Below are positions 12,122 through 19,688 of a stretch of 64,000 bases of DNA, in pieces (the first letter of the stretch is position 1; each line of letters opens with the position of its first letter). The position numbers and the translations under genes are program-made. The stretch is taken from contig JAAXTM010000002.1 in assembly GCA_013336525.1 (NCBI GenBank), positions 372,001-436,000 of the forward strand. Reading direction: 5' to 3'. This stretch comes from Geobacteraceae bacterium. GTDB taxonomy: Bacteria; Desulfobacterota; Desulfuromonadia; Geobacterales; Pseudopelobacteraceae. The notes beneath the pieces were generated by a model. It searched no databases and was not told where the DNA came from. It saw nothing but the letters and a program-made list of their open reading frames with translations.

Positions 12122-13591
12122 TCAGCGCATCAGCTCAAACATACGATCCTCACACGTCTCATCCTTGATATCGATGAACTTGTTGCAGATTTCTGTCACC
12201 ATGTTGACCACGCCCTGATAACCGACCAACGGGTATCTGTGCTTGTTGACACGGTCAAAAACAGGGAAGCCAAAACGGAACAGCGGCAAATTGGCGTCAC
12301 GGGCGGCAAACTTGCCGTGACTGTCACCGATAATGGCATCAACCGGATCGGTCATCACGAGAGAACGGAGGTGCCAGAGATCCTTGTTCATATAAATCTT
12401 GCAGCCATTGCCGTACATCGAGCCGTCCAGCAGCGCCTGCAGTTCCTTTTCGATCTTCTTGGTACCACGGCTGCAAAGAATGTGATGCGGTACGGCACCC
12501 ATCTCCAGCAGGAAGGAAACATAGCCCATCAGGTAATCCGGATCACCATAGACTGCAAACTTCTTGCCGTGCATGTACTGGTGCGCATCGGTTACAGCAT
12601 CCACCGCCCGGCCGCGCTCGTTCTTGATTGAAGCAGGGACTTCCTTGCCGAACAGATCGGACACCTTCATCAGGAAGGCGTCGGTTTTCTCTATACCGAT
12701 CGGCATCGGCATGGAGACATGCTTGCCGGAGTAGTTGTCCTTGATCCACGCAAAGGTCTTGGGTGTGGCATATGGTCCGAGGGTGATGGTCGCCTTGCCG
12801 TTGATCGAGTCAGCAGCGTCCTCCAACTGGGTGCCGCCGGCATAGACGTGGTACGAACCGTCGCAGGGTGAATCAAAGGTATCGGAAATGTCGGCCAGAA
12901 TAGTCGTGGGCACGCCGAACTCTTTCAGCAGCCGTTTGTATTCGCGATAGTCACCGGTGTTGAAATCACAGCCGGCGATAAGGTTCAGCTTCCCTGTGCA
13001 ACGTCCCTCGACCTGTTTTCCCTCCGTCAAGGTCTGCAGGATGGAGACCAGCATGGAGTCATAACCGTGGATGTGGGTGCCGTTGAAGCTGGGGGTGTTG
13101 GCGTAGGGGACCGGCATATCCTTGGGTACACAGCTCTTCTGTTTGGCATTCTTGATAAATGCGGTCAGGTCATCGCCGATAACCTCCGGCATGCAGGAGG
13201 TGAAAACCGCTATCATCTTGGGCTTATAAATGGCGTTGGCATTTTCAAGGCCCTCATGAAGATTGTTCTGACCACCGAACACCGCGCCGTCTTCGGTCAT
13301 GGAATCAGACACGGCAGGTGCCGGCTCACGGAAGTGACGATTGAGTGTTGAACGGTAGTAGGAAGCACACCCCTGTGAACCATGCACAAACGGCAGCGTA
13401 CCTTCAAATCCGTGGGCGGCCAACTGTGCACCGAGCGGCTGACAGGCATGGGCCGGGTTGATCACCAGCGCCTGACGGGCAAAGTTCTTCTCTTTGTACT
13501 CTTCACTGTTGATCCAGTTTTTGACCCGTTCCACCTCTTCAGGCGGGGTTTCAACAATCTTTTTGACCTCAAGTCCCAGTAAGTTTGACAT
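12122..13591 (-). CDS. nifK: Nitrogenase MoFe protein beta chain NifK
   Basis: 489 residues. NifK forms the alpha2-beta2 MoFe protein with NifD and carries half the P-cluster ligands, seen here in NPAHACQPLGAQ, HGSQGCASYYRS and FTSCMPEVIGDDL. Other family marks are SFNGTHIHGYDSM and GDPDYLMGYVSFLLEMG. Start MSNLLGLEVKK at 13591 follows AAAGGAGAAATATT; longer frames to 13636 start inside the leader. Unlike the usual nifHDK operon, nifK is separated from nifD by a SNF2 helicase gene on the other strand. It has its own sigma-54 promoter (13710-13726), leader hairpin and terminator, so NifD and NifK must be matched from separate transcripts. Confidence 0.97.
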   Translation of the reverse strand: MSNLLGLEVKKIVETPPEEVERVKNWINSEEYKEKNFARQALVINPAHACQPLGAQLAAHGFEGTLPFVHGSQGCASYYRSTLNRHFREPAPAVSDSMTEDGAVFGGQNNLHEGLENANAIYKPKMIAVFTSCMPEVIGDDLTAFIKNAKQKSCVPKDMPVPYANTPSFNGTHIHGYDSMLVSILQTLTEGKQVEGRCTGKLNLIAGCDFNTGDYREYKRLLKEFGVPTTILADISDTFDSPCDGSYHVYAGGTQLEDAADSINGKATITLGPYATPKTFAWIKDNYSGKHVSMPMPIGIEKTDAFLMKVSDLFGKEVPASIKNERGRAVDAVTDAHQYMHGKKFAVYGDPDYLMGYVSFLLEMGAVPHHILCSRGTKKIEKELQALLDGSMYGNGCKIYMNKDLWHLRSLVMTDPVDAIIGDSHGKFAARDANLPLFRFGFPVFDRVNKHRYPLVGYQGVVNMVTEICNKFIDIKDETCEDRMFELMR

Positions 13592-13617
13592 AATATTTCT
13601 CCTTTGCATAAATGCTA

Positions 13618-13667
13618 ACGGCGCCCCGTCACTCAAATTAAATAATGAGTACCGGGGCGCCGTTGCC
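13618..13667 (-). promoter_or_regulatory. nifK leader hairpin with hexaloop core, no U-run
   Basis: GGC-AACGGC-GCC (13667-13656, minus strand) is the same hexaloop core as in the nifE leader. It overlaps the left arm of a long hairpin, ACGGCGCCCCG / CGGGGCGCCGT with an extra ACTCA/TGAGT pairing inside. After the right arm comes TAGCATTTATGC rather than a T-run, so this one lacks the usual intrinsic terminator signal. The nifK ribosome-binding site lies just beyond it. Confidence 0.6.
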
Positions 13668-13709
13668 GTGCTGATAGTTGGAATATAAGATTGCTTGTGT
13701 CAGCTTAAA

Positions 13710-13726
13710 TGCATGAGGTGTGCCTA
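13710..13726 (-). promoter_or_regulatory. Sigma-54 promoter of nifK
   Basis: The minus strand reads TTAGGCACACCTCATGCATT: GG at 13724-13723, ten bases, GC at 13712-13711. Transcription is expected near 13699, about 108 nt before the nifK start. Confidence 0.75.
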
Positions 13727-17245: not shown

Positions 17246-18689
17246 AAAATGGTGATTTTACCAGCTTCCAGGTCGGGCTGTTGATTGCCATATCTATATC
17301 TCGGGCAAATACTTCGAAGCCTTTGTAACCGTGGTAAGGACCGGAATAATCCCAGCTGTGCATCTGACGGAAAGGGATGCCCATCTTCTGGAACACATAT
17401 TTTTCCTTGATGCCGGAACCGATCAGGTCTGGCTTGAGTGCGTCGGCAAACTTCTCGAACTCGTACTCGGATGGGTCATCATACACGACAGTGGCGTCGG
17501 GCATTTCCGGTGCGGTACGGTCGTAGTCGTCGGTGTGAGCAAACTCGTAACCTGATCCGACGCAATCCATACCCAGATCTTCATAAGCGCCGATTGTATG
17601 ACGCGGACGAAGACCACCCACCAGCAGCATGACCGTCTTTCCATCCAGACGCGGCTTGTATTCGTCAACGATGGCCTGCATGATCGGGTCATACTTGGCA
17701 ATAACCGCCTCAACCTTCGCCTTGATGTTATCGTCAAACAGTTCGGCCAGTGCCCGCAGACTTTCCCTGATCTTCGTCGGACCGAAAAAGTTCAGTTCGA
17801 TCCATGGAATACCGAATTTCTCTTCCATGACCTTGCACATGTAGTTCATGGAGCGGTAGCAGTGAATTACATTGAGCTTCACCGTGTGGGTAGCTGCAAT
17901 TTTTTCCAGCTCGCCGTCGCCGGTCCAGACCGACTTGACGTTTAAACCGCACTCTTCAAGAAGAGGCTTGGTAGACCAGGCATCGCCGCCGATGTTGTAT
18001 TCGCCGATCAGAGCGATATCGTAGGGACTTTCCGGCTCGGCAAACTCGCGGGTACCGATGATGTAGTCGCGAATGGTATCGTTGGAGATATGGTGTCCCA
18101 GTGACTGGGACACGCCGCGGAAACCCTCGCAGTTACATGGGATGATCGGAATGTCGAGCTCTTTTGCTGACTGCTTGGCCACAGAATTGATATCGTCGCC
18201 GATCAGGCCGACCGGACATTCGGAAAGAACCGAGATCCCTTTGGCAAGCGGAAACAGATCGTGGGCCTCAGCCAGCAAAGTCTTCAGCTTCTTGTCGCCG
18301 CCGTAAACGATGTCTTTTTCCTGGAAATCGGATGTGAACTGCATGGCGAAGTTGTCAACGCCCGTGGTGCCGCTCATCATATTGCGGCGCGTGCCCCATG
18401 AGTACCAGCCGCAGCCGACCGGACCATGTGAAACGTGGACCATATCGCGGATCGGCCCCCAGACAACACCCTTGGCTCCGGCGTAGGCGCAACCACGGGC
18501 GCTCATAACACCTGGAACTGTCTTCTTGTTGGATTTGACGCTGGCACAGCCGGAAGCGGCGTCATTGGGTGCAAGGTGCGGAGCACGTTTTTTCCTGGCC
18601 TTCTCAGGATACACGGACAGTGCATCATCGATCATTGCCTGGGTGGACTCTTTGGTGATGCCTTCAATTTTTCGTATTTTGTCTGACAT
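17244..18689 (-). CDS. nifD: Nitrogenase MoFe protein alpha chain NifD
   Basis: 481 residues. NifD binds FeMo-cofactor and shares the P-cluster with NifK. Visible ligands are P-cluster cysteines in [26 protein letters not shown] and [12 protein letters not shown], the cofactor cysteine in IHCYRSMNY, and the cofactor histidine in [15 protein letters not shown]. Start [15 protein letters not shown] follows GAGGAGTATTCC. It lies 129 bp after nifH with only a repeat element between, so nifHD are probably one transcript from the nifH promoter. Transcription ends at a shared terminator (17193-17245) and not in nifK. Length is normal for the family. Confidence 0.97.
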
Positions 18690-18710
18690 GGAATACTCCT
18701 CTCAAAACCT

Positions 18711-18804
18711 ACCACGAAGACACGGAGACACGGAGAAAACAAAGCCTAAAAGGTTACACCAAAATCTTTTTCGTCTTTCTCTGTGACTCTGTGCCTCCGT
18801 GGTG
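18711..18804. repeat. Inverted repeat of CACGGAG units between nifH and nifD
   Basis: Left side ACCACGAAGACACGGAGACA; right side GTGACTCTGTGCCTCCGTGG. The two sides can fold on each other over about 30 positions with an A/T-rich centre. It lies inside the presumed nifHD transcript, where such a hairpin could set the ratio of nifH to nifD message by stabilising the nifH 3' end. Confidence 0.65.
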
Positions 18805-18818
18805 GATTGTTTTTATTT

Positions 18819-19688
18819 TTATGCCGCTGCTGCCTCGACTACACCAACAATTGACTCGTCCTCTGCTTCCATGATGCCGTATTCCATCAGCAGATCTTCC
18901 AACTCTTCCATTTCAAGTGGTGTCGGAACAACCAGCATCTTGTTATTGAGGATTTTCTCAGCCAGAGTACGGTACTCCTGTGCCTGCGGATGTTCCGGAG
19001 AGTACTCGATAACGGTCATGCGGCGCATCTCGGCACGCTGTACCTGATTGTCGCGTGGGACGAAGTGGATCATCTGGGTGCTCAGTTTGGCTGCCAGGGC
19101 ACTGACCAGTTCGAATTCCTTGTCCGTTTTACGGGCGTTGCAGATCAGGCCGGCCAGACGTACCTTGCCGGAGGAAGCGTATTTGAGAATACCCTTGGCG
19201 ATGTTGTTGGCAGCGTACATGGCCATCATCTCACCGGAACAGACGATATATATTTCTTCAGCCTTTCCTTCACGGATCGGCATTGCAAACCCGCCGCAGA
19301 CAACGTCACCCAGTACGTCATAGAACACGAAATCGAGGTCATCGGTGTAAGCGCCGTTCTCTTCCAGAAAGTTGATCGCGGTGATAACACCGCGGCCGGC
19401 GCAGCCGACACCCGGCTCAGGTCCACCGGACTCGACGCACTTGGTTTCGCCGTAACCGATCTTCATAACATCTTCCAGTTCCAGATCCTCAACAGTGCCT
19501 TTTTCACGAACAAGATCCATGACCGTGTTCTGAACTTTGGCGTGCAGGATCAAACGGGTTGAGTCAGCTTTGGGGTCGCAGCCAACGATCATGACCTTCT
19601 TGCCGAGGTAAGCCAGGCCCGCCACCGTGTTCTGGGTTGTAGTTGATTTGCCGATGCCGCCTTTGCCGTAAATAGCTATCTGTCTCAT
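18819..19688 (-). CDS. nifH: Nitrogenase iron protein NifH
   Basis: 289 residues. NifH is the ATP-driven electron donor to NifDK and also acts in cofactor assembly. Marks: P-loop [14 protein letters not shown] at residue 8, DPKADSTRL, the [4Fe-4S] cysteines in [10 protein letters not shown] and [10 protein letters not shown], and the ADP-ribosylation arginine within GCAGRG, the target of DraT/DraG control in organisms that have it. Start [11 protein letters not shown] at 19688 has AAAGGAG upstream; MSERSNTM seven codons earlier is less likely. The gene has a sigma-54 promoter (19900-19916) and a leader terminator 120 nt ahead. Confidence 0.98.

Follow-up and report, generated by a model that had tools for sequence, protein, structure and literature searches.

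The nitrogenase subunits NifD and NifK combine in a complex at a fixed 1:1 ratio, and the pairing of their genes in an operon is commonly taken to help hold that ratio. Here we describe a nif locus of a Geobacteraceae bacterium in which nifK is detached from nifD and a SNF2-family helicase gene on the opposite strand lies between the two. The whole stretch of DNA analyzed, called the window, is 64,000 nt long (assembly GCA_013336525.1, contig JAAXTM010000002.1, positions 372,001 to 436,000 of the forward strand).

In excerpts of published reports, balanced expression of Nif components is named a hard prerequisite in nitrogenase engineering (PMC10450427), and the nifD and nifK elements of heterocyst-forming cyanobacteria are described as interrupting reading frames, carrying xis recombinases, and being excised (PMC4874684; PMC4284476). 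The excerpted Anabaena work also describes conserved stem-loops near the processed 5' ends of nifH1 and vnf transcripts, the loss of which shortened message half-life (PMC4284476, cited there as unpublished data). Closely related species with and without nifDK pairing provide a natural experiment on how the NifD:NifK ratio is held. The same set of species also bears on how promoters spread between bacteria. In the titles, abstract starts, and passages of the open-access literature, no report of nifK detached from nifD in this group was recognized. A separate nifK has reportedly been described in Frankia in older work.

nifD and nifK are separated by a SNF2-family gene

In the window, nifH (18819-19688; NCBIfam TIGR01287, 468 bits, cut-off 394) and nifD (17244-18689; TIGR01282, 781 bits, cut-off 654) lie on the minus strand as the first and last genes of a putative nifHD unit. 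nifK, putatively a transcription unit of its own, follows on the same strand at 12122-13591 (TIGR01286, 668 bits, cut-off 427). The gap of 3655 bp between nifD and nifK contains a terminator-like hairpin and a gene on the plus strand, which runs from an ATG at 14038 or a TTG at 14002 to 17178 and matches SNF2-family helicases (Pfam SNF2-rel_dom, 1.7e-53; Helicase_C, 1.7e-21). The original prediction, made from the sequence letters, had placed an opposite-strand SNF2 gene here. Open reading frames and family searches bore this out and gave SNF2 as the sole gene content of the gap. The canonical nifHDK operon, with nifD and nifK adjacent, co-oriented, and without a terminator between them, is not found at this locus.

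NifD and NifK align nearly full length to solved subunits, NifD over residues 8-480. The NifK Cys motifs ACQPLGA, GSQGC, and SCMPEVIGDD are kept, as read by eye from the alignment to 10zk_B. The cluster ligands are present by the numbering in an excerpt of PMC10746287, and both proteins are predicted to be functional, full-length subunits. The 3.50-Mb genome (28 contigs) holds one nifD and one nifK at the cut-offs used, and the nif locus is interior to a 798-kb contig.

To see how rare the split is, 141 Geobacterales genomes were surveyed. At the cut-offs used, 118 have nifK, 120 have nifD, and 115 have both; 113 hold the two genes on one contig. There are 119 nifK matches in total, and for 108 of them nifD lies 53-387 bp upstream (median 151). 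Five matches lie farther away: 3655 bp in the window genome (G000), 3666 bp in G029, 3665 bp in G019, 7057 bp in G006, and 893 bp in G086. In G086 the nifK match is partial, and counting its 249 missing residues makes it adjacent to nifD. Another six, including the second nifK of G036, are on contigs without a nifD match. Thus, nifD and nifK are split in 4 of the 113 genomes with both on one contig. G029 and G019 have the layout of the window genome, and G006 also has cydAB between nifD and nifK. In a second collection, which overlaps heavily with the survey and is not independent of it, nifDK are adjacent at 76 of 80 loci; L234, L265, and L266 are split (the loci of G006, G029, and G019), and L237 is the second nifK of G036.

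Two more genomes are probably split. In G026, this is suggested because nifD adjoins SNF2, the contig ends there, and nifK was not found. In G013, it is suggested because nifD is followed at a contig end by a hairpin of the G006 type (L121:4201-4303) and only the 3' end of nifK is seen, on a different contig ahead of nifEN. The split arrangement is real, and it is a rare variant of the nif operon that has been conserved. It is seen in this bacterium and at least three related species, with the genes behind what are predicted to be two nitrogen-gene switches.

The terminator that had been proposed after nifD has a counterpart in a terminator-like hairpin at 17193-17235, between the converging ends of nifD and SNF2, which was found by folding and hairpin scoring. 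Strong hairpins of this kind lie behind nifD in the four split genomes, in G026, and in G013, the last being partly circular since the hairpin is itself used to argue that G013 is split. The nifD-SNF2 spacer of G000 is related to those of G029, G019, and G026 (pairwise BLAST E 6e-5, 7e-4, and 0.002), and G006 and G013 have another hairpin in common (86% over 51 bases). Nine of the 31 unsplit spacers tried (of 76) also have a terminator-like hairpin, mostly weaker; among these nine, one is artefactual, produced by Ns, and another equals those of the split genomes in score.

The detached nifK has a putative promoter and a conserved leader

A separate promoter and leader had also been proposed for nifK, and candidates for both were found by leader comparison and pattern searches. 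Upstream of nifK in the split genomes, and of the second nifK of G036, the order is a TGCATAAAAAAAC[AG]GCA box, a sigma-54-type site, a strong hairpin, and a ribosome site. In the window, these lie on the minus strand. The box TTGCATAAAAAAACAGCA (13810-13827) has the form TTGC-N11-GCA and resembles an activator site, and the sigma-54-like site is TAGGCACACCTCATGCAT (13709-13726). The hairpin at 13615-13668, located by pattern search and folding, has a lower stem that is invariant in the five leaders of detached nifK genes (those that no nifD adjoins). All four of the elements named above are conserved, unlike much of the sequence from box to promoter. The -24/-12 site, AGGCAC-N6-TGC, has one mismatch, at its first base, to a nif sigma-54 consensus given in an excerpted report as close to TGGCAC-N5-7-TGC (PMC12316311), and it is a putative sigma-54-dependent nif promoter.

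The hairpin pattern of this leader occurs in 5 of the 141 genomes, always directly 5' of a nifK without an adjoining nifD. A BLAST search with the leader in 39 genomes of the genus recovered these five, with E from 8e-122 to 3e-33. Elsewhere its best match had E 0.058, barring the hairpin of the window itself, matched on the opposite strand. Folding z scores ranged from -3.5 to -6.0 in four tested leaders, with the window leader at -6.0. The idea that the nifK leader was copied from another nif leader is not supported, as BLAST against the whole of its own genome gave no second copy and the hairpin before nifH is different.

The control region of nifH, also on the minus strand, contains a sigma-54-like promoter, TTGGCACGACCAGTGCAA (19899-19916), and an upstream box, TTGCACATAATATAGGCA (19988-20005), both found by pattern search. 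Its leader hairpin (19818-19853), read from the sequence with no tool score, is followed by T-rich sequence and is unlike the nifK hairpin. The nifH and nifK regions are alike in architecture only, each having a TTGC-N11-GCA box and a sigma-54 site. This box followed by a sigma-54 site at 62-90 bases occurs twice in the 64 kb, before nifH and before nifK, with 0.01 occurrences expected for this composite pattern, which was defined after both sites had been seen. The box alone is common, with 23 matches compared to 15.7 expected in the window. Box and promoter are 91 bases apart in three leaders of nifH and 103 bases apart in three of nifK. A loose sigma-54 pattern was present in all 16 nifH leaders tried and in all five leaders of detached nifK genes, and a stricter one has exactly three matches in the window, those of nifH and nifK included. 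Because promoter and box are of the same kind, nifHD and nifK should switch on together during nitrogen fixation.

A further sigma-54-like site lies on the minus strand at 954-971, with an upstream TGCACATAAATTAGGCAA box at 1035-1052 that resembles the nifH box. This site is probably in front of nifE, given a NifN-like match immediately beyond the window edge; no search was aimed at nifE. Near the nifK box, an inverted repeat of 27 nt (74%) pairs 13812-13838 with 13999-14025, beside the SNF2 start. This repeat may be due to chance, or it may mark a second activator-like site between the divergent SNF2 and nifK genes.

The unsplit nifDK spacers have a different, small hairpin just before the nifK ribosome site, with a six-base loop that is mostly RGATKR (e.g. 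L224:8953-9000). In 40 loci hand-picked from the 80, three of which by eye have no such hairpin, 6 of its 7 predicted pairs show two-sided changes with pairing kept. Five loci searched for this hairpin gave no Rfam match. Leader comparison did not find it before the detached nifK genes. Any part of this hairpin in setting the D:K ratio would be speculation.

The 5' end of nifK is mosaic

In the NifK tree, G029, G019, G009, and G027 are on one long branch (100/100). The same four and G026 are on one long branch of the NifD tree (100/100). The NifK of G000 groups with those of G005 and G025 (100/99), and its NifD is 97 and 96% identical to their copies. In the species tree, built from gyrB and rpoB with G036 and several others placed by gyrB alone, G005 and G025 are far from G000. 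Because of this disagreement, it is probable that nifD and nifK bodies were exchanged between lineages. In G000, NifD and NifK are of one broad type despite the SNF2 gene between them, and across 25 genomes NifD distances correlate with NifK distances (rho 0.78, pairs not independent). No block exchange at the nifD 3' end was marked by windowed identity.

The beginning of the detached nifK probably has a different history from its body. Over codons 2-40, the synonymous identity among four lineages is 0.80, which was reached in 6 of 5000 random quartets. The excess over the rest of the gene is 0.24 compared to a random-quartet mean of 0.08, and this was reached in 1 of 5000; the random quartets could include detached nifK genes. 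Sites specific to the kin of G029 and G019 start at base 134 of their nifK. The leader apparently moved as one piece with the nifK 5' end, and the join would lie within the first ~130 bases. Since the leader and the first ~40 codons are common to lineages whose remaining nifK differs, the nifK control region was probably exchanged by recombination.

The explanation that we favor, with fair though far from full confidence, is that nifHD and nifK are separate, co-activated units and that the split arose beside SNF2 and spread by recombination. Each unit would be initiated separately at a sigma-54-type promoter, and the activator box upstream would be of one kind in both. Transcription of nifHD would stop at the hairpin behind nifD. 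nifK would be read from a promoter of its own, and its leader hairpin probably stabilizes the message or sets translation. SNF2 would be a native neighbor. The arrangement of terminator, SNF2, and nifK leader would have arisen next to SNF2 in the genus. Lineages would have kept this arrangement or passed it to one another through homologous recombination, which would place the same leader and first ~40 codons at the head of nifK bodies of different ancestry. We infer both this origin and the direction of exchange. A bolder version, which we put forward only tentatively, is that the leader is a transferable regulatory cassette that passes from species to species by recombination, by way of the nifK 5' end, and has made nifK an independently initiated unit. 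NifD and NifK would still change type together, and their balance would depend on matching promoters and leader hairpins in place of operon coupling.

Several points weigh against this explanation. There are only five such leaders, and the four besides that of the window come from metagenome-assembled genomes. Their hairpin has no covariation support, which is uninformative because the stem hardly varies. The exact upstream box is present in just 3 of the 16 nifH leaders and 3 of the 5 nifK leaders. The nifK 5' region was picked after a first look, and its first 120 bases have just one strictly diagnostic site, which leaves the breakpoint uncertain. The position of G000 in the NifD tree is not firm, and the whole-gene DNA of G000 nifK is equally near to the detached copy of G036 (84.1%) and to G005 (84.0%). 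A single origin would require loss or replacement in the sister species G009, because its nifDK is contiguous, and, counted on the tree alone, two independent gains cost no more than a single origin. In favor of the explanation, a 58-bp piece of the upstream-box region of the detached nifK adjoins SNF2 in G027, whose nifDK is contiguous (E 2e-6 and 78% identity against G000; E 1e-4 against G029 and 0.18 against G019). In our reading, this piece is what remains of a detached nifK that was lost, but it could be older SNF2 upstream sequence from which the leader was built. The history may be one split followed by loss in G009 and G027, spread by recombination, or a start as a second nifK like that of G036.

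SNF2 and the alternative explanations

SNF2 orthologs were sought elsewhere in relatives, as the original prediction had proposed, and they are widespread in the genus. Their distribution marks SNF2 as native to the genus. The SNF2 tree pairs G000 with G009, G027 with G013, and G029/G019 with G026, matching the gyrB and rpoB tree where resolved; its bootstrap is not settled and deeper forks are open. SNF2 adjoins nifD or nifK in seven genomes. It lies between the two genes in G000, G029, and G019, and with cydAB in G006; it adjoins nifD in G026 and is directly behind an intact nifK in G009 and G036.

The strongest alternative is that nifK was duplicated first, beside cydAB or SNF2 and with its own promoter, and that the original behind nifD was then lost, leaving SNF2 in between. 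G036 speaks for this alternative. It holds a normal nifHDK followed by SNF2, plus a detached nifK behind cydAB, and the sole cydB found in its bin sits on the contig of the detached nifK. The position of SNF2 behind the intact nifK of G009 and G036 also fits. However, the G036 bin is 6% contaminated, and this contig is 5 kb long with a coverage of 2.3 compared to 3.7 for the other nifK contig. The usual order in relatives is nifHDK, followed in some by gene 10710 and/or SNF2b, a second, larger SNF2-type gene. In G000, G029, and G019, nifK keeps these downstream neighbors (SNF2b and/or gene 10710), as would be expected if nifK stayed and SNF2 came in, which weakens the duplication. We regard it as unlikely.

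Another possible explanation, close to the original prediction, is a single recent insertion of SNF2 into nifDK of the window genome that was rescued by a new promoter. The gene order is nifHDK, SNF2, gene 10710, and a rhomboid-like gene in G009 and nifHD, SNF2, nifK, gene 10710, and the rhomboid-like gene in the window. Relative to the usual order, SNF2 and the new control region sit exactly at the D/K junction of the split genomes, which gives the look of an insertion, and the flanking order in the window, nifHD on one side and nifK with gene 10710 on the other, is the usual one. This much of the proposal stands, but a simple, private insertion is not supported. Comparison of the nifHDK region among relatives gave the same layout in G029 and G019, with related junctions, and these largely refute it; in G009, SNF2 is behind an intact nifDK. 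The same leader is also present where cydAB, not SNF2, adjoins nifK. In addition, no direct repeats of at least 14 bases flank SNF2, and the family search gave no recombinase gene in the nifD-nifK gap. A private insertion is therefore highly improbable, and a mobile-element insertion or excisable nif element was rejected on the same two negative results.

Equally improbable is that the SNF2 protein, transcribed divergently from nifK, regulates nif and was retained at the locus for that reason. Its place beside nifD or nifK in seven genomes would fit, as would a match below cut-off to a pilus-expression-regulating Snf2 helicase of NCBIfam (392 of 1100 bits). Against this, nifHDK was not seen beside SNF2 in 18 other fetched SNF2 regions (up to 20 kb, several ending at contig ends), 8 of which have a rhomboid-like gene near SNF2, a label that is a weak family match. 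Also, the nif-positive genomes G005, G007, G015, and G033 have no close SNF2 ortholog. An assembly error is very unlikely, because two other assemblies have the same order with nearly the same gap and nothing was found in its favor; the finding that would have spoken against the original prediction, SNF2 absent from all relatives together with misassembly, was not made.

The SNF2 orthologs (window 14038-17178; L116:5817-9362; L120:52-3758) have a long and a short form. The long form has ~1200 aa and an N-terminal part with a Cys/His-rich look, SWIM-like by eye and without a Pfam match. The short form, in several lineages with differing N-terminal ends, lacks this part. SNF2b is found 3' of nifK in several relatives (L112:14898-19079; L232; L228; L226). 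An anti-phage role of SNF2 was considered and rejected, as the NCBIfam matches to ZorD (201 of 1500 bits), DrmD (60 of 950), and DpdE (28 of 500) are all under cut-off. PADLOC, run without cut-offs, gave up to 417 bits between SNF2 and DpdE, over the helicase part.

Gene 10710 (10710-11984, minus strand), identified from open reading frames and neighborhoods, lies 3' of nifK here and in several unsplit relatives. Its function is unassigned, and it gave no Pfam or PADLOC match. The window also has modABC-like, nifV-like (homocitrate synthase domains), radical-SAM, and draG-like genes and, because of these and the NifN-like match beyond its edge, the locus appears to be part of a larger nif region. 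Searches for known RNA families gave a single tRNA in the window and none in the loci of five relatives.

Comparison with known systems

As far as the excerpted reports go, the nifD and nifK elements of heterocyst-forming cyanobacteria resemble this locus in that DNA parts the subunit genes or pieces of them (PMC4874684; PMC4284476). In contrast to those elements, both genes are whole here, no recombinase gene lies between them, and nifK has its own promoter-like region. The nifHBDK order of Chloroflexi, described in part of another report, is similar in that another gene breaks nifHDK. There, however, it is nifH that is parted from nifDK, and nifD and nifK stay adjacent (PMC7216921). The Anabaena stem-loops are likewise hairpins before a nitrogenase gene, but they differ in sequence and phylum, and the hairpin here would act in a separate nifK unit. 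The ordinary Geobacterales nifHDK operon is closest, with the same proteins, a sigma-54-type site before nifH, and often the same neighbors (mod genes and gene 10710). Compared to it, this locus lacks the ordinary intergenic hairpin, has a terminator-like hairpin after nifD, and carries a detached nifK with its own putative promoter and leader.

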